A stretch of 63,735 nucleotides of DNA, taken from positions 1 through 63,735 of the forward strand of contig JANXOF010000072.1 of assembly GCA_025353725.1 (NCBI GenBank), read 5' to 3'. The position numbers and the translations under genes were made by a program. Positions 29,939-51,100 of the stretch are shown here, in pieces. A model generated the notes under the pieces. It was not told the DNA's origin, did not search any database, and was given only the letters and a program-made list of their open reading frames with translations. The stretch is from Polyangiaceae bacterium. Lineage in GTDB: Bacteria; Myxococcota_A; Polyangia; Polyangiales; Polyangiaceae. Each line of letters begins with the position of its first letter. Position 1 is the stretch's first letter.

Positions 29939-31357
29939 TCACTTCGCGGACCATTCGGTGTGGAAGCTTCCTGGCTTGTCGATGCGCTCGTAAGTGTGAG
30001 CGCCGAAGTAGTCGCGCTGGGCTTGCGTGAGATTGGCTGGCAATCGCTCGCGACGAAGCGAATCATAGTATCCGAGCGACCCGCTCATGGCCGTCACGGG
30101 CACACCGGCTAATGTGGCTTGCACGACCGTGCTTCGCCAGCCTCGTTGCCGCTCCGCGAGCTCCCGCTGAAAGTCGGCGTCAAGCAGCAGATTTCCGAGC
30201 GCCGGATCGCGATCATAAGCGTCTTTGATTCGGCCCAAAAACTGCGCGCGAATGATGCATCCACCCTTCCAAATACGTGCGAGCTCGCCGAGATTAATGC
30301 CCCACGCCCGCGTGTTCGACGCCGCACGAAGTAGGTTCATTCCCTGCGCGTAACTACACGCTTTCGCGGCGTAGAGAGCCGCTCGCACCTCGGCGATAAG
30401 AGCTTTTTTATCGGTCGAACCCGCGCGCATCGCAGGACCTACGAGGAGCTTCGACGCGGACGCCCGCCCCTTTCGATCAGCCGAAAGGATGCGCGCCTCA
30501 ACAGAAGACGCGATGGCCGGCACGGGCACCCCGAGTTCGGCGGCATCCTGAACCGTCCACTTGCCCGTTCCCTTGGCGGCAGCGGCATCGACGATCATGT
30601 CGATGAGATCGTTTCCGGTCTCGGGGTCCTTCTTCCGGAAAATATTTGCCGTAATCTCGATGAGAAACGACTGCAGCTCCCCCGCGTTCCATTCGGAAAA
30701 CGTGTCCGCGAGTTCGGCGTTCGTGAGGCCACCGAGCGTCTTCATGACGTCGTAGGCCTCGGCGATAAGTTGCATATCGGCATACTCAATGCCGTTGTGA
30801 ACCATCTTCACATAGTGCCCCGCGCCACCCGGGCCGCAGTACGTGACGCAGGGTCCGTCGACCTGCGCCGCGACTTTCTTTAGCATCGGGGCCATCGCGT
30901 CGTACCCGGCGCGATCCCCTCCGGGCATCATCGAGGGACCGTGCCGCGCACCTTCTTCGCCACCCGACACGCCCATCCCGAAGAACCGAATTTCGTGGAG
31001 GGCGAGCTCTTTCGCGCGCCGCTCGGTATTCTGAAAAAATTCATTTCCGGCGTCGACGATCATGTCGTCTTTGCTGAGCAGCGGCAGGAGCGCGGCGAGC
31101 GTCTTATCGACGACTTCCCCGGCCTTGACTAAGAGGATGATCCGACGAGGACGTCGCAGCGAAGCGACAAAGTCTTTCAACTCTTTGAAGCCCTTTACGT
31201 TCGTTGCGCCTTCACGTTCAGCCTTCGCGTCGAACTTATCGACCGGCTCCGGCCAGGCGTCCCAGCCTGCGCACGAGAAACCTTTTTCGTCGAGATTAAG
31301 CGCGAGGTTCTGCCCCATGACGCCCAACCCAACCATTCCTACTTCGTAATCACTCAT
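29939..31357 (-). CDS. gnd: 6-phosphogluconate dehydrogenase, decarboxylating
   Basis: A 472-residue enzyme of the oxidative pentose-phosphate pathway, converting 6-phosphogluconate and NADP+ to ribulose-5-phosphate, CO2 and NADPH. Nucleotide loop GLGVMGQNLALN, substrate segments GVSGGEEGARHGPSMMPGG and KMVHNGIEYADMQ, signature VDAAAAKGTGKWT. Length is that of the long (Gnd) form. A complete single-gene unit, convergent with the patatin. Confidence 0.96.
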   Translation of the reverse strand: MSDYEVGMVGLGVMGQNLALNLDEKGFSCAGWDAWPEPVDKFDAKAEREGATNVKGFKELKDFVASLRRPRRIILLVKAGEVVDKTLAALLPLLSKDDMIVDAGNEFFQNTERRAKELALHEIRFFGMGVSGGEEGARHGPSMMPGGDRAGYDAMAPMLKKVAAQVDGPCVTYCGPGGAGHYVKMVHNGIEYADMQLIAEAYDVMKTLGGLTNAELADTFSEWNAGELQSFLIEITANIFRKKDPETGNDLIDMIVDAAAAKGTGKWTVQDAAELGVPVPAIASSVEARILSADRKGRASASKLLVGPAMRAGSTDKKALIAEVRAALYAAKACSYAQGMNLLRAASNTRAWGINLGELARIWKGGCIIRAQFLGRIKDAYDRDPALGNLLLDADFQRELAERQRGWRSTVVQATLAGVPVTAMSGSLGYYDSLRRERLPANLTQAQRDYFGAHTYERIDKPGSFHTEWSAK

Positions 31358-31547
31358 GGCTCACCCCTAATCTTGACTTCGCTTGACGTTACGTCGATTA
31401 CGGTTGTCGCTGTTCGATGGTTGCGCTTCGCCGTTCGGTCGCCGCGTAGCGTACGAACTCTTCGTGTCGTTCACCAGACCTCGTCGCGGCGAGGAGATTC
31501 CGGTCCGTCATCGGCACGGACCGAGGTAGGGTCTCGCCGATGGAACT

Positions 31548-32216
31548 ATGGAACTGAGGAAGCTCGTCAAAGGAATCCATTCGTTCCAGCGAGGCTTCTT
31601 CACCACCCACAAAGAACTCTTCGAAAAGCTCGCGACCGAGGGACAAAACCCTGAAACTCTGTTCATCACGTGTTCGGACTCGCGCGTCGTGCCGAACCTC
31701 ATCACGGGCGCGGCACCGGGCGACCTCTTTATCGTGCGAAACGTGGGCAACATCGTGCCCGGGCTTACGCTCGCGGGCGGAACGGCGGCCGCCATCGAAT
31801 ACGCTACGGAGGTCCTCGAAGTGAAGGACATCGTCGTGTGTGGCCACACGCAGTGCGGGGCTGTCGAAGCCATCTTGAACCCCGAAAAGCTGAGCGCGCT
31901 TCCGACCGTGAAGCGATGGCTCGCCGAAGCCTCCACCGTTCGCGACATCCTTGACCATCGCTACGGAGACCTCCTTCCCGCTGAGAGGGCGATTGTGGCG
32001 GTCGAAGAGAACGTCCTTTCCCAGCTCGAGCACCTTCGCGAGTACCCCTCGGTGTCCACCCGTTTGGAGGCCGGCAATCTTAAGCTGAGCGGTTGGGTCT
32101 TTGACATTGCGACGGGCCAGGTGTTCGAGTTCGACCCCGTAGAGATGCAATTCGTGCCGCTTAGCGCGGCGGAGGAGGCCGACCGCACCTCCCGAACCGC
32201 GGCCGCCATGCCCTGA
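31548..32216 (+). CDS. beta-class carbonic anhydrase
   Basis: A 222-residue zinc enzyme interconverting CO2 and bicarbonate. Zinc ligands C42 (CSDSR, with D44), H100 and C103 (HTQCG) are all present, as is the substrate-channel region NVGNIVPG. No signal peptide. ATG 31548 lies after a 190-base intergenic region. Provides bicarbonate for carboxylases such as those of fatty acid synthesis. Confidence 0.94.
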   Translation: MELRKLVKGIHSFQRGFFTTHKELFEKLATEGQNPETLFITCSDSRVVPNLITGAAPGDLFIVRNVGNIVPGLTLAGGTAAAIEYATEVLEVKDIVVCGHTQCGAVEAILNPEKLSALPTVKRWLAEASTVRDILDHRYGDLLPAERAIVAVEENVLSQLEHLREYPSVSTRLEAGNLKLSGWVFDIATGQVFEFDPVEMQFVPLSAAEEADRTSRTAAAMP

Positions 32217-32279
32217 CGGTAAAGGGCGAGTGCCTTTCCGGCTAGCACCGTGTTGCCAGCCTGCTATGAGACCGCAAGC

Positions 32280-33644
32280 ATGGGAAGCGGTCTAGAACAT
32301 CTCCTCACGGAGGGGGTCATCAGCGAGGTTCTCGCGCGCCTACAGAGCGGCAAAGAGGCGGAGGTCTACGTCGTCCGCTTCGGCGGCAAGGTGGTCGCAG
32401 CCAAAGTCTACAAAGACCGCGCGACGCGAAGCTTCAAGAACAATGCGGAATACAAAGAGGGCCGCGCCGTCCGTAACTCCCGCTCCCAACGAGCGATTAA
32501 CAGCGGTTCGCGATTCGGCAAGGCCGCCGCGGAGGACGCCTGGAAGACCGCCGAAGCCGATGCGCTCTACAAGCTTCACGCGGCCGAAGTTCGCGTTCCT
32601 GTCCCCGTTCTTTTTATCGATGGCGTGCTGCTCATGGAGCTCGTGCTCGACGAAACGGGCAACCCGGCGCGGAGACTGATCGATACGGACCTCACCGCCG
32701 CGCAAGCAAATGAGGCCTACCACGACATGCTTGGGCAGCTCGTGCGCATTCTGTCGTGTGACTTGATTCACGGAGATCTGTCGCCGTACAACGTACTTTG
32801 GGGCGCTGCGGGGCCGACCGTGATCGATTTTCCGCAAATCGTTTCAGCCTCGCACAACAGCAGTTCGGAGCGTTTTTTCCGCCGCGACGCGGAAACGATT
32901 CTTGGCCACTTCGCGAACATCGATCGTAGCCTCGCGAGTCGTCGTGGTGACGTTTCGGAGATCTGGAACGCTTTTCTACGGCGGGAGCTGAGCCCCGATT
33001 TCCGTCCCTCGGGTACGGGTCGCGCGTTCGCACGGGACACGCGGGGTCCGCATGTTTCCCGAGAGGTACGTCAGGCCACACAGGGGCACGCGGAGCCAGC
33101 GCGCGACGCACGCCGAGACACCCCGAACCAAGCGATCCCGCGACGCGGACACGACCAGCCCGCGCAGGCGCAACACGGGCCCCAAGCTCCTGCACACTCG
33201 CGCGGGTTGCGCGATCGCCCGCAAGCACCTCGCGAGCAGCAACACGGGCCTCGCGCTCTAGGGCAGGCACCTCGCGACCCGCATCAAATACCTCGCGATC
33301 AGCACCAAGGGCCACGCGGGCAGCACGAGGCACCTCGCGGTCAGCACCAGGCACCTCGCGGTCAGCACCAAGCACCTCGCGGTCAGCACCAAGCCCCTCG
33401 CGATCAGCACCAAGCGCCACGCGGTCAGCAGGGGCAGGCGACGCAACCCAGCAGGCGAGGTCCGCCGTCCGCCACGGCCGCGGCGAATTCCCCTCGCGTT
33501 TCCGCTCCGTCGGGCGGCGCGAACCAGCATCGGCCGCGGCGGCCCGAAGTCATCGTTCTTCGACGTCGGCCTTCCGAGGGCGCCGCGCTTGAGGCAGAGA
33601 AGTCGCCGGCAGCTCCGGAGAGTACACGCGCCACACGCTCGTGA
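32280..33644 (+). CDS. RIO-type kinase with Gln/Pro/Arg/His repeat tail
   Basis: A 454-residue protein. Residues 10-240 are a RIO kinase: nucleotide loop SGKEAEVYVV (replacing the glycine loop), lysine K42 in AAKVYK, RIO insert SFKNNAEYKEGRAVRNSR, catalytic HGDLSPYN (D166) and metal loop VIDFPQ (D183), the latter like RIO2. Residues about 240-420 are low-complexity QAPRGQH/QAPRDQH-type repeats, probably disordered, and the C-terminus is basic. RIO kinases act in small ribosomal subunit maturation in eukaryotes and archaea; the bacterial role is poorly known. The stop overlaps the dioxygenase start. Confidence 0.88.
   Translation: MGSGLEHLLTEGVISEVLARLQSGKEAEVYVVRFGGKVVAAKVYKDRATRSFKNNAEYKEGRAVRNSRSQRAINSGSRFGKAAAEDAWKTAEADALYKLHAAEVRVPVPVLFIDGVLLMELVLDETGNPARRLIDTDLTAAQANEAYHDMLGQLVRILSCDLIHGDLSPYNVLWGAAGPTVIDFPQIVSASHNSSSERFFRRDAETILGHFANIDRSLASRRGDVSEIWNAFLRRELSPDFRPSGTGRAFARDTRGPHVSREVRQATQGHAEPARDARRDTPNQAIPRRGHDQPAQAQHGPQAPAHSRGLRDRPQAPREQQHGPRALGQAPRDPHQIPRDQHQGPRGQHEAPRGQHQAPRGQHQAPRGQHQAPRDQHQAPRGQQGQATQPSRRGPPSATAAANSPRVSAPSGGANQHRPRRPEVIVLRRRPSEGAALEAEKSPAAPESTRATRS
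33222..33434. repeat. 21-bp coding tandem repeats in the RIO kinase tail
   Basis: Repeated units of about 21 bases containing cacctcgcggtcagcac encode APRGQHQ-like heptads. Three or more units around 33330-33400 are nearly identical. In-frame length variation is likely. Confidence 0.8.
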
Positions 33645-34414
33645 CGGAGTGCCGCCAGACGGATCATTCCGGAGACCAAAGCTCGTGCGCGCTCGACTCA
33701 GCAGGTACGTTCTTCCTCGAACGCGCTCCTCTGAAAGCGCGTGCAAAAGCGGTCCAGGACGCGTACCAGCAATCGCGTCCCTTCCCGCACGCCGTGTTCG
33801 ACAACTTCCTCGGCCCTGTACGCGCGACCGCGCTCGCCGCGCGATTTCCGAACCCGACTCATGAAGGCTGGATGCGCCGCGATTATCGCGAGCAATCGGC
33901 GCGATTCGGGCAATTGCAGCGGACGGGCTTCGAGGGCGTGGATGCCTCGATTCGGCATCTGCTTTCCGAGCTTTGCGGGATGGCCTTTCTCGACTTTCTC
34001 GCCACGCTCACGGGGATAGACGGCCTCATTCCTGACGCGCACTTCCGCGGTGCGGGGCCGTCATTGACCTTGCCTGGAGGCCATCTCGCGCTCCACGCCG
34101 ACTTCAACCAGGACCGTAAACGCAACCTCAAGCGCCGTGTGACGGCCCTTTACTACCTTTGCGAAGATTGGGAGCCCGAGTGGGGCGGGGCTCTCGAGCT
34201 GTGGGACGAGGCGCAAACCCGATGCGAATCGCAGTATCTGCCACTTCTCGATCGACTCATCGTGATGGCGCACGGGGACACGTATTGGCACGGGCACCCC
34301 TCCCCGCTTACGTGCCCGGCGGGTCGGTATCGAGCCTCTATAGCCTCCTATTATTATACCGCGACTCCGCTGCCTGATGTGGAAGGCGCCCACGGCGCGG
34401 TTTGGGCGCCTTAG
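33641..34414 (+). CDS. 2OG-Fe(II) dioxygenase, prolyl-hydroxylase-like
   Basis: A 257-residue dioxygenase of the double-stranded beta-helix fold. Iron ligands H152-x-D154 in LALHADFNQD and a distal His in WHGHP (H217 or H219); R231 in RYRASIASYYY would bind 2-oxoglutarate. PFPHAVFDNFL near residue 50 is typical of the prolyl 4-hydroxylase/Tpa1-like group. GTG 33641 overlaps the RIO kinase stop (GTGA), so the two are translationally coupled. Substrate unknown: a ribosomal protein, or the Pro/His repeats of the coupled kinase, are hypotheses. Confidence 0.88.
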   Translation: MTECRQTDHSGDQSSCALDSAGTFFLERAPLKARAKAVQDAYQQSRPFPHAVFDNFLGPVRATALAARFPNPTHEGWMRRDYREQSARFGQLQRTGFEGVDASIRHLLSELCGMAFLDFLATLTGIDGLIPDAHFRGAGPSLTLPGGHLALHADFNQDRKRNLKRRVTALYYLCEDWEPEWGGALELWDEAQTRCESQYLPLLDRLIVMAHGDTYWHGHPSPLTCPAGRYRASIASYYYTATPLPDVEGAHGAVWAP

Positions 34415-34643
34415 CGAGCGGCGCGGCAGGAAGCTTCACCTCTCGACGAGAGCAGGTGCGCGTCCAGGAAGCGCGCTCTTAGGCGCGTTTGCCGAAAGCG
34501 TAAAGTACTACGCGAATGCGAATTCAATTTCGCACCTTGCCCTTCTAAACGTTTGAAATCACACGAGCGGCAGACTCGAGCTGCTCGGAACGAGTCTTGC
34601 TTGTGCTCGATATTGGTTCAACCACTCAAGGAGTCTACCAATA

Positions 34644-36269
34644 TTGAGACGCATATTCTTTCCGGACGCCGCATTTCTGGGGTCCGTGGCCGCAATGGCG
34701 GTCTCGACGCCCGCCTCAGTGCGCGCTGAGCCGCGCGAGCCCGAAGCTACAGACGGAACCATCGTCGCGCTCGACGCGGGTGACTTCGTCGTCGACGTTG
34801 GCGCAACCAAGGGCGCACACGACGGGGACGTCGTCGACGTATGGCGACCCGTACGCCTTCGGCATCCTGTAAGCGGACTCGTGCTGCTGGATCGCTTTCG
34901 CATCGGAGCGCTGCGCCTTGTCCAGGTGCGGCGCACGCTTTCCCTCGCCATTGTGGAGGGAAAAACCTCTCGTACCCCTGTCGCTGGAGACGTTCTCGTT
35001 CTCGCGGAGGCACGCGACCCGAGCGCGGATGGGACACCTGGAAAGGTCGATAGAGTCCACGAGCGAGTCGCCCCTTTGGCACCGGAACCCATCGTCGCGG
35101 CCGCGAAGCTGACGCCCGGTTCCGGCTCGAACGCAGGCCTCGCGGACGACGCCGAAGCACGCGATCTCGCGAAGCTGATGACATCACTGACGGGAAGCGA
35201 GCCGGGGCACCGCGCCGTCGCGTACGAAATGTTTGTCCGCGCCCATGCCTCGAGCCGGTTCGCGACTGTTTTGCGTGAAGAAACGGCCGCCCTGCGCGCG
35301 CCACGCGAAGTCGAGCGGCAGTACCTTGCCTCCGCACCGAAGCTCGGTCGCGTGCGGGCAGGCGTGCCGCAACGTTTTGCGGTCGAACTTGACCCACTGT
35401 TTGTCGGAGCCGTAGTGCACGTACGCCGACGAGGAGCGGCGTCATACCGTTCGATACCAATGGGAAGTAGTGGTCCGCGCTACTGGACGGCGACTCTTCC
35501 AGGCGACGCCATGACCAACGACGGAATGGAGTATTTCGTCGAAGGCCTACCGAAAGCCAGCCCGCCCGTCGCCATCGTGGGTAAACCCGAGACGCCGCGG
35601 CGTGTCGAAGTCGACGCGCTCCCCGGACCGCTGCGCGTCACGGGCACGAAGGCCTCGGTCTCGGTCCAAAGCGAATTTGCGTCGTTCAATGTCACGCGTG
35701 CGAACGATTACGTATGGCAAACAGAGGGTTCCGTCGGCTGGCGACTTCGAGACGAAGGGCTACGTGCCGTGCGCTCTGGCTTTGGAGTCCTGCGCGGTCA
35801 AGGCGGCTCGCTGGATGACCTTGACAGGCTGCAACGCGACCCGTCACCGGTCGGACTTACGTACGGCTACGTCGAAGCGGAGATCGCGCTATCTCCCACG
35901 TTTTCAATCCTCGCGCGGCCCGTGCTCGGCCTTCGTGAGCGTGGCGTGACGGGAGGCGCCCAAGGCTTCGTACGCATCGGAAGCGACCTTCGTACGAACT
36001 TGTCCGTCGGCGGTGAAGTCCTCGGCAGCGTCGGTCAACGAGGCATCGTACAGCTCGATTGGCGCACGCTCAGACGACTGCCCATAGCGCTCCGCACCGA
36101 AGTCACGAATCAGCCCGCCGACGGGAGCGATGTAGGCGCTCGCGCCATCATCCAGGTTGGTTACGAGGTGACACCCGAATTCGCCCTCGCCGCGCGTGTG
36201 TCTTATCAAGGTCGAACCATTCATCATGCGGGCCCGGGGACGGGACTCGCCGTGAGCTATCAATGGTAG
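34644..36269 (+). CDS. outer-membrane barrel-like protein with N-terminal domains
   Basis: A 541-residue exported protein. A signal peptide (residues 1-28) is followed by a small beta domain, DGTIVALDAGDFVVDVGATKGAHDGDVVDVWR, resembling the SH3-like folds of FlgT-type proteins. A helical part and an Ig-like segment (FVGAVVHVRRRG) come next, and finally alternating hydrophobic strands ending in YQW. A C-terminal aromatic is typical of outer-membrane barrels. TTG 34644 has AAGGAG upstream. Coupled to a paralogue of the same design. Function unknown. Confidence 0.72.
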   Translation: MRRIFFPDAAFLGSVAAMAVSTPASVRAEPREPEATDGTIVALDAGDFVVDVGATKGAHDGDVVDVWRPVRLRHPVSGLVLLDRFRIGALRLVQVRRTLSLAIVEGKTSRTPVAGDVLVLAEARDPSADGTPGKVDRVHERVAPLAPEPIVAAAKLTPGSGSNAGLADDAEARDLAKLMTSLTGSEPGHRAVAYEMFVRAHASSRFATVLREETAALRAPREVERQYLASAPKLGRVRAGVPQRFAVELDPLFVGAVVHVRRRGAASYRSIPMGSSGPRYWTATLPGDAMTNDGMEYFVEGLPKASPPVAIVGKPETPRRVEVDALPGPLRVTGTKASVSVQSEFASFNVTRANDYVWQTEGSVGWRLRDEGLRAVRSGFGVLRGQGGSLDDLDRLQRDPSPVGLTYGYVEAEIALSPTFSILARPVLGLRERGVTGGAQGFVRIGSDLRTNLSVGGEVLGSVGQRGIVQLDWRTLRRLPIALRTEVTNQPADGSDVGARAIIQVGYEVTPEFALAARVSYQGRTIHHAGPGTGLAVSYQW

Positions 36270-37363: not shown

Positions 37364-38149
37364 TCAGTGGCAGCTCTCGACTTTCACGGATTTCACGCTG
37401 TGTTCGGTGACGGAGTCGGTCGCCGAAGCCGTGAAGCCAAAGTAGCCAAGCGCGGGCGCGGTCGACGCAAGGTCGCGAGAGAACTGTGTTTTTGAGTCCA
37501 AACTTCCCGCGATGCGGTTGGCGCCAATGTCAAACGACAATGTATGGTCATTGGAAAACAACGTCGTAGGGCTCTTCGGCTGCTCCGCGCACGTCGCAGC
37601 ATCGAGAACGAAAAGCTGTTTATCTCTCGTGTCCGCAACAACGGCATAGCCGCTCAGTCCAGTTCTGCAAAATCCGAACTCCTGCCCAGGCCTTCCGAGG
37701 CCAAAAGCGCCGGCTTCGCCCCACGCATCGATCCAAGTAATCGCGATACCATGGCCAATTTTGCCAAGAGTACTATCAATGGCCGTGCTGAGCTTCACTG
37801 TCACTCGAAGTATCGCATCGCGACCTATACGTTCGCCCCACCAGGCGGCCCCATTCGTTCCCTTCACTGGAGGCGTCAGAACGAGCTTTCCCGTCTCAAT
37901 TCGAGCGTCTAAAGCCAAGTTCCACTTACTCGAAGGTGTAGCGAAGTCCTCGTCGATAACCACATCGCAGCGCAGCCCCTGTCCCGCATCCGCGATGTCG
38001 CCGCTGTCCACCACCGGGACGCTCGCCTCGTTCGGGAGCTTTCGCTCCGGTACGAGTTCGGTAGCTGGCTCCGCCTGTTCTAGTGCGGCGACCTCACTGA
38101 ATGGCTTGCAGGATGTCACCAAGCACGCCGCTATCAGGAAGTTCTTCAC
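37364..38149 (-). CDS. lectin-like lipoprotein A
   Basis: About 261 residues. GTG 38149 gives a signal peptide with lipobox (KNFLIAACLVTSC). The mature domain is beta-rich, with GKLVLTPPVKGTNGAAWW, GYAVVADTRDKQLFVLDA and ALGYFGFTASATDS near the end, a pattern of concanavalin-like sandwiches such as legume lectins. It is a paralogue of the next gene on the same strand, with the same start layout. A carbohydrate-binding role fits the neighbouring deacetylase but is inferred. Confidence 0.75.
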   Translation of the reverse strand: MKNFLIAACLVTSCKPFSEVAALEQAEPATELVPERKLPNEASVPVVDSGDIADAGQGLRCDVVIDEDFATPSSKWNLALDARIETGKLVLTPPVKGTNGAAWWGERIGRDAILRVTVKLSTAIDSTLGKIGHGIAITWIDAWGEAGAFGLGRPGQEFGFCRTGLSGYAVVADTRDKQLFVLDAATCAEQPKSPTTLFSNDHTLSFDIGANRIAGSLDSKTQFSRDLASTAPALGYFGFTASATDSVTEHSVKSVKVESCH

Positions 38150-38291
38150 GCCATTCAAGGCTAACGAATCTGGCGAAGTAGGCTCATGAAACTTAACGAC
38201 CGAGGGCCCTAAGTAAGGAAAGCCGACAGCGTGCACTACGGTGAAAGGTTCAACTTACCTCGTAGCCTTCGCTTGCCGCCTGGCCACAGCG

Positions 38292-39065
38292 TTAGCGGCA
38301 ACTCTCGACTTTCAAAGACGTAACGAGATGCGCCGTGCCATTTTTTGGCGTAGCTGCGGTGAAGCCAAAGTATCCGTTTGTAGGTATAGCCAACTCGCCA
38401 CCGTCGATAACGCGCGAAAAGCTCTGGCCATCGAACGTCCCTGACATTTCGTTCTTCGTAATGACTAAGGCGAGCACGTGCGCTCCTTCCACCGTGATGG
38501 TCGGTCTTGCTGGATAATCACAGCCCACGGCGTCAAGCACGAGCAACTGACGATCTCGCGTATCCTCCGCAACGGCGTAGCCGGTCATCCCGCCCGTACA
38601 AAGTCCAAAGCTTTGGCCCTGGCTTCCAAGACGAGCTCCGTTTTTCGCGTCTACCCAAGCGACGGTGAGCCCTTCTCCTAAGACGTGCGACGGCGCGGTC
38701 GTGCTCGTGAATTCTGCTGTTACGCGAAGGCTGGCTTCGAGGGTGAGCTCGGCCTTCCACCACGCCGCGCCTGCGGTCTGTTCTCCCTCACCTGAGGTGA
38801 GAACGAACTTCTCAGCCTCAACACGAGCGCCACCAAGCGTAGACCACCGGGCAGCTTCCGTCGCAAGGTTACCGCCAATCATGACTCTGCACGGCCCCGC
38901 ATCCACCTCGGATCCGGCGTCCAAAAGTGGGGAAGCAGGAATGTCTGGAGGTTGGGGAGCGACGCCGCCATCCGGAGCTGATCCAGCGCCGCCTGGCAGT
39001 GTCGTTTCTCCAAAGGAAGTGCACGAGCTCACTATCCACAGCACCGCGAACGCGCTCTTCTTCAC
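38292..39065 (-). CDS. lectin-like lipoprotein B
   Basis: About 257 residues; GTG 39065 gives a signal peptide with lipobox (FAVLWIVSSC). An Asp/Pro/Ala-rich linker is followed by the same beta-sandwich as its neighbour: GAAWWKAELTLEASLRVT, GYAVAEDTRDRQLLVLDA and NGYFGFTAATPKNG. A tandem duplication; 142 bases separate the two. Divergent from the polysaccharide deacetylase. Expected on the cell surface, binding a glycan. Confidence 0.75.
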   Translation of the reverse strand: MKKSAFAVLWIVSSCTSFGETTLPGGAGSAPDGGVAPQPPDIPASPLLDAGSEVDAGPCRVMIGGNLATEAARWSTLGGARVEAEKFVLTSGEGEQTAGAAWWKAELTLEASLRVTAEFTSTTAPSHVLGEGLTVAWVDAKNGARLGSQGQSFGLCTGGMTGYAVAEDTRDRQLLVLDAVGCDYPARPTITVEGAHVLALVITKNEMSGTFDGQSFSRVIDGGELAIPTNGYFGFTAATPKNGTAHLVTSLKVESCR

Positions 39066-39167
39066 GTGAACGAAGCATAGCCGGACCGTGACGAAAGAGT
39101 CAGTAACGCGAGCTTTCTCCGGCGTCAGGGCCTTGCACTTGTTTCCCCACATGGTACAGCGCCGCGC

Positions 39168-47837: not shown

Positions 47838-48310
47838 TCATGCCGCTCGCTTGGTCGCTCGTTTTGCAATGTCGTGTTCGTAGAAGGCCTTGGGCGTCAT
47901 GCAGCAAAGCGCCTGGTGCGGTCTATCGTCGTTGTAGAGTTTAAGATAGCGGCCGATACCAGCGCGGGCATCTTTCGGGTCGTCGTACGCATGCATGTAG
48001 ACTTCTTCGTACTTCACGGGGCGCCAAAGTCTCTCGATGAAGATGTTGTCGAGAAATCGGCCTTTGCCGTCCATGCTTATGGCGGTGCCGTGCTTTTTGA
48101 GCACGCCGGTGAACGCGTCGCTTGTGAATTGGGCGCCTTGGTCGGTGTTGAAAATGTTGGGTGATCCATAGCGCTGCAAGGCCTCACGGAGCGCATCGAT
48201 GCAGAAATCGGTATCCATCGTCGTCGACAGACGCCACGACAAGACGCGCCTCGAGAACCAGTCCATCACGCAGACGAGGTAGACGAAGCCGGACTTCATG
48301 GGGATGTACG
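47838..48310 (-). CDS. IS3 transposase orfB, 3' exon (integrase core)
   Basis: Encodes the last 157 residues of the DDE transposase: YIPMKSGFVYLVCVMDWFSR, then FNTDQGAQFTS with the second catalytic Asp, then DNIFIERLWRPVKYEEVY with the catalytic Glu. It joins the 5' exon ending at 50144: with the intron removed, the coding length is 409 + 473 = 882 bases, in frame, and the junction codon gives Asp-Ile-Thr-Tyr-Ile, as in intact relatives. Without splicing the transposase is broken. Confidence 0.85.
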
Positions 48311-50143
48311 GGTGAGTAGGCCGGGGCATTTCAGCCCCAGCCCCTCGCAGAACCGGACGTGAACCTCTCGACTCATCCGGCTCCTATTATCGAGCCCTAG
48401 GAATAATCCCCATTTCCCAATGCACGAACGACCGTGGTGCGCCCTCTGCGAGAAGTCCAAGCGCCCGGGAAGCGCGGATTACTCCGCGCGCCAGCCGCTT
48501 GTATTTCCGTTGCATCCATCGCACCAGATAATCGTTTACGTGTCTCCACAACGGCCTCATTGCGGATGCATAGAATCGACCATAGTAGTTCGCCCAGCCC
48601 CGAAGGACTGGGTTGAACATGTTCGACAGGTCGCGTAACTTCTTGTCATTCATGAGCTGAACGTGCCACTTTCGAACGGTTTGCCTTATGCTCGAAAGAG
48701 CGTCGCGACTGACTCCGGGAGCGAAGTTCACGTAGACGCCGCCATACTCGTCGACCGACTTTCGGGGCCGAAACGTGTAGCCAAGAAACGTGAACTGGAT
48801 GCTCGGATAATCGCCTGTTCGATTAGCGTCTCGACAGTATATTATCTTCGTCTTCTCCGGATGCAGTTCAAGTCCGCACTCGCGAAGCCTCTCTCCGAGC
48901 CGCCTCAACACGAGTCGGGCCTGCACTTCACTCCGGCAGTGAACGACGCCGTCGTCCGCGTAGCGACAGAAACGTACGCTACGAAGTTCACGTCGCATCC
49001 GCGCGTCCAGCGCCAAGTGCAGGAAAAGGTTTGCGAGAAGCGGGCTCACGACTCCCCCTTGCGGGATACCTCGATCACGGCAACGAGCATTCCATCTTGT
49101 GTCTGCATGGGCGCTTTCAGCCATCTCTCAATGGACAAGAGCAGCCACGCAGTCCGACAGTGTCTTCGTACAGCTCGCAGAAGCAGCTCGTGGTCGATAT
49201 TGTCAAATAGACCTTTGATGTCGAACTCGACAACCCAGTCATAGTTCCAGCTTCGACGCCTCACAAGCTCTACCGCATCGAGCGCGGAGCGCCCGGGCCG
49301 ATAGCCAAATGAGTCGCGATCGAAAACCGGCTCGAGCACGGGCTCGAGGACCATCTTTACCACCGTTTGTGCAACTCGATCGGCAACGGTTGGAACACCC
49401 AACAACCTTGTTCCCCCGCTCTTCTTTGGGATCGGAACGGCCTTGACTGGCGGCGGGAAATAGCTGCCAGAGCCCATGCGATTCCAACGTTTGTACAGGT
49501 TGTCACCGATCTTCTGCTCGAACTCTTCGATCGATTCTCGATCTATACCCGCACTTCCTCCGTTCGCTTTGACTCGCTGGAATGCCTTCCAGACGAGCAT
49601 CTTCGGGATATCGAAGGACTTTGTCATTGGCCCACGCTCCTCCTGCTTTCGCAGTTGACGTAAACCTCCGACTCGATAACGCGACCCCTTCGCTCCACCA
49701 CCATTACGGTAGCTTCAGCGCTACTACGAGTCGCTCCGCCCCTTGGTCGCACATCGGTACTGTCGGCCTCGCGTTTTGCGCTTGTGCCTTTCACTTTGCA
49801 TTGCGTCCGAAGGTTCCCGCAGTTCAACGTAAGAGCCCGAACCAGGCTGGCGCTGCCTCTATGCCGGACGCCGCGTGGCCAATAGACAGGCACCCGCCAC
49901 GCTGATCCCGGGTTAACATCAACGCCCGGTTTCGACGTCATCTGAACACTTTCGGCAATTGAACGGCAGTTCACGTTTGTTCGCCTTCCTGATCCTCAGC
50001 TGATGCCTTTTGGGCACCTTTTCCGTAACGCTCACGACCGGGGCTTTTGACCCAAGCCGCTTACGGTGGTTTGCAACCTGCTCCTGCAAGCCGATTACGA
50101 GGGGGCCAATCCCTCATCTCCTACGCCGCTTTCTGCGGCACAC
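48311..50143 (-). ncRNA. group II intron
   Basis: The 5' end (at 50143) starts GTGTG, the group II consensus. The 3' end has a textbook 34-base domain V at 48350-48383 (GAGCCGGATGAG arm, GTTC end), followed by a domain VI hairpin and CTACTCAC. About 515 bases of 5' ribozyme (domains I-III) precede the intron-encoded protein at 48387-49627. Length is about 1.83 kb. The 3' boundary is uncertain by one base (48311 or 48312); 48311 restores the transposase frame. Confidence 0.9.
48387..49627 (-). pseudogene. group II intron reverse transcriptase/maturase, one frameshift
   Basis: Two overlapping frames make one protein of about 413 residues. The first covers the fingers (NGGSAGIDRESIEEFE, SFGYRPGRSALDAV) and the second the palm, with the catalytic RYADD, and the maturase X domain (LRGWANYYGRFYAS). 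A single missing base near 49084 (GTTGCCGTGATC, where GCC CGT GAT is expected) breaks the frame just before GIPQGGVVSPLL. No C-terminal endonuclease domain is present. The protein would normally splice and mobilise the intron. Confidence 0.88.
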
Positions 50144-50552
50144 TGATGTCCCAGCTCCACACTTGGTTCGGCGCCGTTGCGATGTGCGCATCGACGCTTC
50201 GCGCGGTGCGCGGCCTCGCGCGACCGCGGTGGGTGTTTTGCCCTTCCGCACGCAGAACCCCATAGAGTGTGGACTCCGAAGCAAGGTAGCGGCCCTCGTC
50301 GGCGAGGCGCGGAATGACCTGTTTTGGAGGCAGGTCGCGAAACTCGGGTGAGTTGACGACCTCAAGCAGCTTCACGCGTTCTGCCGCTGTAAGAGCATTG
50401 GCAGGCCGTGTTGTTGGACCTGCCCGATAGTCGTCTCCCACGTCTACGTTCCGCCAGCGTTGCATGCAGCGCTCCGTGAGCCCGAGCTGGAGACACGCAC
50501 GCTCTCGCCGCGCACCCGCGGCCACGGCTTCGTCGACAAGGCCGAGAATCAC
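50144..50552 (-). CDS. IS3 transposase orfB, 5' exon
   Basis: GTG 50552 with GAGGGGA upstream starts ILGLVDEAVAAGARRERAC, the usual N-terminal helix-turn-helix of IS3 OrfB. RGRARPRTARSVDAH and NQVWSWDI follow, where the integrase core normally continues. The exon ends inside the Thr codon at 50144 and the group II intron begins at the next base. Confidence 0.85.
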
Positions 50553-50590
50553 TTCGCGTTCCCCTCGCCGGTGCCGTCGTCCCCGTCCCC

Positions 50591-51100
50591 CTAAATCTCG
50601 TGGACTTTTTTTTGGAGCACCAGCAACGCCGCTGTCTCCGCGAGCGCCCGGTCTTTGCGTCGAAGCTCACGTTCAAGGTCCTTAATTCGCCGCGTGTCGG
50701 CGCCGCGCGCTACGGACCGTGGCGTGCCGTTCTCCAGCGCCAAGGTTGCTCCTTGAGCGACAGCCTCGCGCCAATGCTGAAGGTCGGCTTCGTGCACGCC
50801 CTCGCGACGTAGAAACACACCGAGTTCGTCGGGCCCAATCGTGGCCGCCGCCATCACGATGCGTAGCTTTTCTTTGGCCGTTCGTGCCCGGCTATCCGTC
50901 TGCACCACGTGATTCACCGGTGAGTCCTTGCTCATTGGACCTACCGTACGAGCCACTGAAACCCAGCGCGAGAGACATGATCGCGCGACGCCAACCTCCT
51001 TCGATAGCTTGGCCGCGCTGATCGCATTGGGCACCGATAATCGCGGAACCTTCTTTGCTTTGAAGCTGTCCGTGTAGATCAAAATAAATTTCCAGTTCAT
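50591..51100 (-). CDS. IS3-family transposase orfA
   Basis: A 169-residue helix-turn-helix protein. YTDSFKAKKVPRL and LSKEVGVARSCLSRWV at the N-terminus, TAKEKLRIVMAAATIGPDEL in the middle, and a coiled-coil RRIKDLERELRRKDRALAE at the end, as in OrfA of IS3 elements. In the family, OrfB is made by -1 frameshifting or reinitiation from OrfA. The true start may lie a few codons further in than ATG 51100. Confidence 0.82.
   Translation of the reverse strand: MNWKFILIYTDSFKAKKVPRLSVPNAISAAKLSKEVGVARSCLSRWVSVARTVGPMSKDSPVNHVVQTDSRARTAKEKLRIVMAAATIGPDELGVFLRREGVHEADLQHWREAVAQGATLALENGTPRSVARGADTRRIKDLERELRRKDRALAETAALLVLQKKVHEI

Follow-up and report, generated by a model that had tools for sequence, protein, structure and literature searches.

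In eukaryotes, the kinase RIO1 acts in the maturation of the small ribosomal subunit. We know of no such role for bacterial members of the RIO family, and our searches, judged from the results returned, yielded no literature on the function of bacterial RIO kinases (including those of Myxococcus and PA4780) and no description of a pair formed by a RIO kinase and a 2-oxoglutarate (2OG) oxygenase. Among the 2OG-Fe(II) oxygenases, the bacterial enzymes PolD and PasI presumably belong to nucleoside-type pathways, and the ligand of PasI is named in the title of its structure entry. Tpa1 of Saccharomyces cerevisiae and human OGFOD1 are prolyl 3-hydroxylases (P3Hs) of the ribosomal protein uS12, and Pseudomonas PPHD is a prolyl 4-hydroxylase (P4H) of EF-Tu. 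According to PMC4396695, peptidyl P3Hs and P4Hs share a common Arg (Arg322 in PHD2), P4Hs carry Tyr310 where P3Hs have a Leu (Leu152 in OGFOD1, Leu156 in Tpa1), and the first metal-binding His of OGFOD1, His155, lies three residues after Leu152. That source also states that the Leu/Tyr residue does not by itself settle the regiochemistry, and describes the OGFOD1 subfamily as having two DSBH domains and as occurring in eukaryotes only.

Here we compare these systems with a locus in a 63,735-nucleotide stretch of DNA (hereafter the window), which is one contig of a 6.6-Mb draft genome with 98 contigs. The window carries a gene for a RIO-type protein kinase, followed directly by one for a single-domain, prolyl-hydroxylase-like 2OG-Fe(II) oxygenase. 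The original prediction assigned the genes to these two families with intact active-site motifs, which was confirmed by Pfam scores above the cut-offs and by the residues described below. It further proposed an undescribed ribosome- or protein-modifying pair, a proposal that is not supported, as no conservation of the pair was found outside the window genome within Myxococcota. Comparison of the sequences instead makes it likely that two enzyme genes, both complete and probably active, have separate histories and came to lie side by side in one myxobacterial lineage, and nothing in it suggests that either protein depends on the other.

The kinase gene (32280-33644, + strand) encodes 454 residues from an ATG, with an alternative GTG at 32250. 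Its catalytic domain (about 32280-33020) is followed by a low-complexity, basic tail rich in Pro, Gln and Arg, in which a 21-bp tandem repeat (33222-33430, + strand; 10 copies, 76% matches) has a consensus coding for QAPRGQH heptads. The oxygenase gene (33641-34414, + strand; 257 aa) starts at a GTG that shares bases with the TGA stop of the kinase, and the overlap predicted from the sequence is thus present as GTGA at 33641-33644. Overlaps of this type are common in bacterial operons. The GTG at 33641 is the earliest ATG, GTG or TTG in its frame and sits 23 residues ahead of a conserved FF motif, compared with 7-15 residues for the starts chosen in eight orthologues, which makes it a plausible, although not proven, start. 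Upstream, the carbonic anhydrase gene (31548-32216, + strand; PF00484) stops 63 bp short of the kinase ATG on the same strand, and is therefore the probable first gene of a likely transcription unit of carbonic anhydrase, kinase and oxygenase; the divergent neighbour is gnd, encoding 6-phosphogluconate dehydrogenase (29939-31357, - strand). A promoter and terminator scan of 31300-34800 returned no promoter-like sites and five terminator-like sites, against 3.6 (sd 2.0) in shuffled sequences. Judging from the overlap, the kinase and oxygenase genes probably share transcription and are translationally coupled in the window lineage.

Elsewhere in the window, parts of a group II intron RNA (RF00029 at 48311-48385 and RF01999 at 49999-50115) were located within 47838-51100 on the - strand, and two overlapping frames between these parts contain reverse-transcriptase-like ORFs (49046-49627 and 48387-49124; identities by eye). 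The integrase-like and HTH-like ORFs that flank the intron resemble an IS3-type element by eye, and the intron seems to lie inside it. Two adjacent ORFs on the - strand (37364-38236 and 38292-39152) also look alike by eye (GAAWW, DTRD-QL-VLDA), and probably arose by tandem duplication of a lipoprotein-like gene.

The kinase matched Pfam RIO1 with an E-value of 1.3e-33 (116.7 bits, cut-off 22). It retains SGKEAEVYVV, AAKVYKDR, HGDLSPYN and IDFPQ, which we take to be the P-loop, the Lys, the HGD and the metal-binding Asp motifs, and the protein probably acts as an ATP-dependent protein kinase or as an ATPase. Membership of the PA4780 equivalog was rejected, since the protein scored 280.2 bits over nearly the whole NF041645 model, below the curated cut-off of 350, and falls in a separate clade of the kinase tree. 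This tree contained 75 distinct catalytic-domain sequences, obtained from 86 loci, of which 77 had the full domain by motif and two were dropped as duplicates. The window kinase groups in a clade of 27 of these sequences (clade B, support 1.0) beside the kinase of the relative G044 (76% identical), and on this phylogeny is a member of a well-supported myxobacterial RIO clade. Eukaryotic RIO1 (PDB 4otp, E = 4.6e-16) and archaeal Rio1 (1zp9, E = 4.8e-10) were matched by sequence; the far better score on the bacterial RIO model and the bacterial clade indicate that the kinase has no special closeness to eukaryotic RIO1. Several Myxococcota RIO kinases from both clades likewise carry long tails of low complexity, with much Arg, Pro, Gln or Gly.

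The oxygenase matched PF13640 with an E-value of 9.9e-15 (55.7 bits, cut-off 27), is the sole match to this family in its genome at E 0.01, and carries the HxD...H...R site as H152-x-D154, H217 and R231, with S233 completing RxS. In 43 aligned rows (the window protein, 37 orthologues and five wider relatives), L149, H152, D154, R165, H217 and R231 are invariant, Y172 is Tyr in 40 (Phe in 3 of the 38 orthologue rows), and S233 is variable, being Ser in 14 of the 38 orthologue rows. The same six positions are kept in 34/34 rows reaching each in a second set, comprising all 33 oxygenase loci from the searches of 144 relatives and 329 genomes described below; this set includes L033, a frame-broken copy present as two pieces, each without part of the positions. 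A structural model was predicted from a 14-sequence alignment (A1), made up of the window protein and 13 of the 25 other oxygenase matches in the 144 relatives, mostly those on the + strand, and reached a mean pLDDT of 84.5 and a pTM of 0.84. Compared with solved structures, it matched Tpa1 best (Z 20.5), followed by OGFOD1 (19.9), PHD2 (19.3), PolD (19.2) and PasI (19.1), with Tpa1, PHD2, PolD and PasI spread within about 1.5 Z. By sequence profile, the order was PolD (9blq, E = 1.7e-12), OGFOD1 (4.7e-9), the PHDs (about 1e-6), 4iw3 (2e-4; this entry and 4j25 are presumably Pseudomonas PPHD) and Tpa1 (0.013).

R165 aligns with an Arg of OGFOD1, Trichoplax PHD, EGLN2 and Dictyostelium PHD, at a position that we take to be Arg322 in PHD2 numbering, and the Arg shared by prolyl hydroxylases is thereby present in all 43 rows. 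The genome's own uS12 carries the KPNSALRK loop, which is found in most uS12 proteins, so that a candidate hydroxylation site exists. L149, three residues before the first metal His, is the Leu expected of a prolyl 3-hydroxylase on the basis of PMC4396695, and together with R165 it favours a peptidyl-prolyl substrate, in keeping with the comparison with Tpa1 and OGFOD1. The likeness to these two enzymes that was originally pointed out is accordingly upheld by the best fold match, the P3H-type Leu and the prolyl-hydroxylase Arg. With 257 residues, the protein has room for one DSBH domain, and it is not claimed here for the OGFOD1 subfamily, since PMC4396695 characterizes that subfamily as two-DSBH and eukaryotic. 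The active site and predicted fold suggest a peptidyl-prolyl hydroxylase, which would use Fe(II), O2 and 2-oxoglutarate and, if the Leu is a guide, would be of the 3-hydroxylase type. A reasonable guess for its substrate is a conserved loop proline of a translation protein, such as uS12 or EF-Tu.

The best-placed alternative is that the oxygenase acts on a small-molecule or nucleoside-like substrate, as PolD and PasI do, and is unconnected with proteins. It draws on the sequence profiles, in which PolD ranks ahead of OGFOD1, and on the fold scores of PolD and PasI, which are near that of Tpa1. We regard this as possible but distinctly less likely, because the invariant R165 is aligned with Arg in prolyl hydroxylases and with Lys in PolD, and because no gene cluster travels with the oxygenase gene.

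The distribution of the oxygenase and its linkage to RIO kinases carry the argument for separate histories. When 84,980 species' genomes were scanned with the orthologue alignment and two short peptide patterns, which do not reach distant oxygenases, 37 oxygenase loci were returned; 36 bear myxobacterial titles, and the remaining one is labelled Comamonas sp. KCTC 72670. Among the titled loci, those closest to the window oxygenase belong to Myxococcota (Byssovorax, Labilithrix and others), and the orthologue group appears to be almost restricted to Myxococcota here and to be kept without a fixed neighbour. The Comamonas record (L116, BNCN01000001.1) carries a myxobacterial oxygenase (58%), and its RIO kinase (L137) nests among myxobacterial kinases; it is probably a mislabelled myxobacterium.

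Neither tblastn nor a six-frame RIO profile found a RIO kinase within up to 8 kb on either side of the orthologous oxygenases (0/37; 30 loci with at least 1.5 kb on both sides, seven with less on one side), and no carbonic anhydrase was matched in these 37 loci. In the reverse search, 94 RIO stretches were fetched, corresponding to 85 after removal of repeat fetches; most have about 1.5 kb of flank, and 31 of the 94 are shorter than 3,500 bases, mostly because the contig ends. The only oxygenase matched in them by the A1 profile, in picked ORFs as well as in all six frames, was that of the window itself. Genes around both loci were picked by a crude codon-position GC method, and the adjacency tests were redone on all six frames. 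Conserved RIO-2OG neighbours, in the form of a two-gene module linked across lineages, were thus not found within Myxococcota, and lack of conservation outside the strain was a result that the original prediction named as refuting the pair.

These results bear directly on the possibility of a functional pair, in which kinase and oxygenase would modify one target (the ribosome, a ribosomal protein or a translation factor) and coupling would match their amounts. The GTGA overlap fits such a pair and speaks against chance neighbours, as it is real and such overlaps can be open to selection; the Tpa1/OGFOD1-like fold of the oxygenase and the KPN proline kept in the genome's own uS12 also fit. Co-occurrence is partly in line with it: a RIO kinase was found somewhere in at least 26 of the 37 oxygenase genomes, including 20/20 of the Myxococcus/Corallococcus/Archangium type (by title, with the Comamonas record included) and at least 6 of the other 17. 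No match was obtained in the remaining 11, with at most 49 kinase candidates scored per genome at E 1e-20. As many genomes are drafts and only part of the candidates were scored, a missing kinase may be a gap or a miss.

Among 144 relatives, the oxygenase was found in 23 (E 1e-5 or better) and a RIO kinase in at least 36 (E of 1e-20 or lower, from no more than 16 scored candidates in each genome). Both genes occur in at least seven, namely the window genome and G007, G014, G044, G089, G104 and G122, and in the latter six they lie on separate contigs. A phylum-wide sample of 329 genomes (the oxygenase and kinase samples being taken as identical, with at most seven kinase candidates scored per genome) had the oxygenase in 12 (E 1e-40 or better), the kinase in at least 120, and both in at least three (G000, G089 and G387), on separate contigs except in the window. 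Archangium lansinium has the two genes about 8 Mb apart on apparently one 13.76-Mb contig. In one Myxococcus xanthus record, the oxygenase (L113) is accompanied by pieces of a kinase on other contigs. With kinship ignored in all three tests, co-occurrence in the 144 relatives was near chance for any RIO kinase with the oxygenase (7/23, one-sided p 0.34), remained close to it for orthologous oxygenases only (6/14, one-sided p 0.10), and was slightly raised for clade-B-like kinases, picked by score, with oxygenase orthologues (3/14 vs 6/130, one-sided p 0.04). Since the relatives examined carry the two genes apart, they are probably chance neighbours rather than a working pair. Given the lack of conserved linkage in both searches, the 11 oxygenase genomes lacking a RIO match and this near-chance co-occurrence, we consider a functional pair improbable.

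The gene order of the window, gnd followed by carbonic anhydrase, kinase and oxygenase, can be set beside that of the relative G007 (L065/L127), where a single short predicted ORF is all that separates the oxygenase from a nearby gnd homologue, 83% identical to the gene in the window. Neither a RIO kinase nor a carbonic anhydrase was found in that interval, and the G007 kinase, of PA4780 type, is on another contig. The simplest reading, inferred from these two genomes, is that carbonic anhydrase and kinase genes came to separate gnd from the oxygenase in the window lineage.

No widely recurring neighbour of either gene was found, the commonest families occurring in 6 of the 37 loci around the oxygenase and, around the kinase, in 10 of the 94 stretches, and no kinase neighbour was conserved beyond close relatives. 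A conserved partner immediately upstream was considered for the oxygenase and rejected, as the predicted ORFs at that place in 8 of the 37 loci, six of them in the orientation of the oxygenase and two reversed, are mutually unrelated: MarR, a PemK-like protein, DUF1801 with AHSA1, JmjC_2/cupin barely at the cut-off, and four without a Pfam family. A phage origin was likewise rejected, neither protein having a PHROG match at E 1e-3. In Pyxidicoccus caerfyrddinensis, the gene immediately ahead of the oxygenase orthologue encodes a PemK/MazF-like toxin (L103:7484-7888; PF02452, E = 1.6e-21). In Archangium violaceum, the orthologue has as its neighbour on the opposite strand a gene (L098:1510-2886, - strand) with a match, at 23 bits vs a cut-off of 22, to JmjC_2 (PF08007), presumably the family that includes the ribosomal oxygenases.

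A further proposal links the two proteins directly, with the oxygenase hydroxylating prolines in the kinase's own Pro-rich repeat tail and thereby tuning RNA or protein binding. The ten 21-bp repeats coding APRG-type motifs, and the long, often Pro-rich low-complexity tails of several Myxococcota RIO kinases, would suit it. We judge it very unlikely, because the tails vary in sequence between genomes, the complete kinase L160 of the other clade has hardly any (~16 residues), and many RIO-bearing genomes lack the oxygenase. An assembly artefact joining two unlinked genes, although no second genome shows the join, is just as hard to credit, given that both genes are complete, that their frames meet in a precise 4-base overlap, and that the PEVIV stretch ending the kinase tail is common to the 76% identical G044 kinase.

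The preferred reading is therefore of two members of known families together in one lineage, with the pair unsupported as a conserved system. The case illustrates that an operon overlap can look convincing in one genome and yet disappear once relatives are examined. The oxygenase group merits a biochemical test by itself. If it modifies uS12 or another translation protein, ribosomal proline hydroxylation of the Tpa1/OGFOD1 type would gain a bacterial counterpart, and Myxococcus and Corallococcus, in which it would occur, are open to cultivation and manipulation. Bolder, and with little probability in our estimation, is the idea that the Myxococcota group would consist of single-domain prolyl 3-hydroxylases acting on uS12 or a different translation protein, would be an extant relative of the ancestor of the two-domain eukaryotic enzymes Tpa1 and OGFOD1, and would in the window lineage have come under joint expression with a RIO kinase.

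Set against the known systems, the window kinase shares the RIO catalytic core with the PA4780 family of RIO1-like kinases (NF041645), from which its score below the 350-bit cut-off and its separate clade distinguish it; eukaryotic RIO1 and archaeal Rio1 have an RIO domain alike by sequence and are distant from it. Of the bacterial 2OG oxygenases, PolD (9blq) is the best profile match and, with PasI (9ei6/9ei7), has a Z of about 19; PolD differs in having Lys in place of Arg165 and, if THVD is its metal motif (a reading by eye), Val in place of Leu149. PHD2/EGLN1 (Z about 19) and Pseudomonas PPHD (4iw3, matched weakly by profile) are single-domain like the window oxygenase, whereas P4Hs, according to PMC4396695, have Tyr where the window oxygenase family has its invariant Leu. 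Relative to Tpa1 and OGFOD1, the window protein has one DSBH domain instead of two and 15-18% identity, the Ser of RxS varies among its orthologues, and it is bacterial, likened from sequence and predicted fold to a subfamily that PMC4396695 places in eukaryotes only. Tpa1 and OGFOD1 are nevertheless its best structural matches and share the HxD...H...R site, which includes RxS in the window protein. As in OGFOD1, for which PMC4396695 gives Leu152/His155, a Leu precedes the first metal His by three residues, an Arg stands at the start of the same strand, and Tyr172 takes the place of the 2OG-binding Tyr169.
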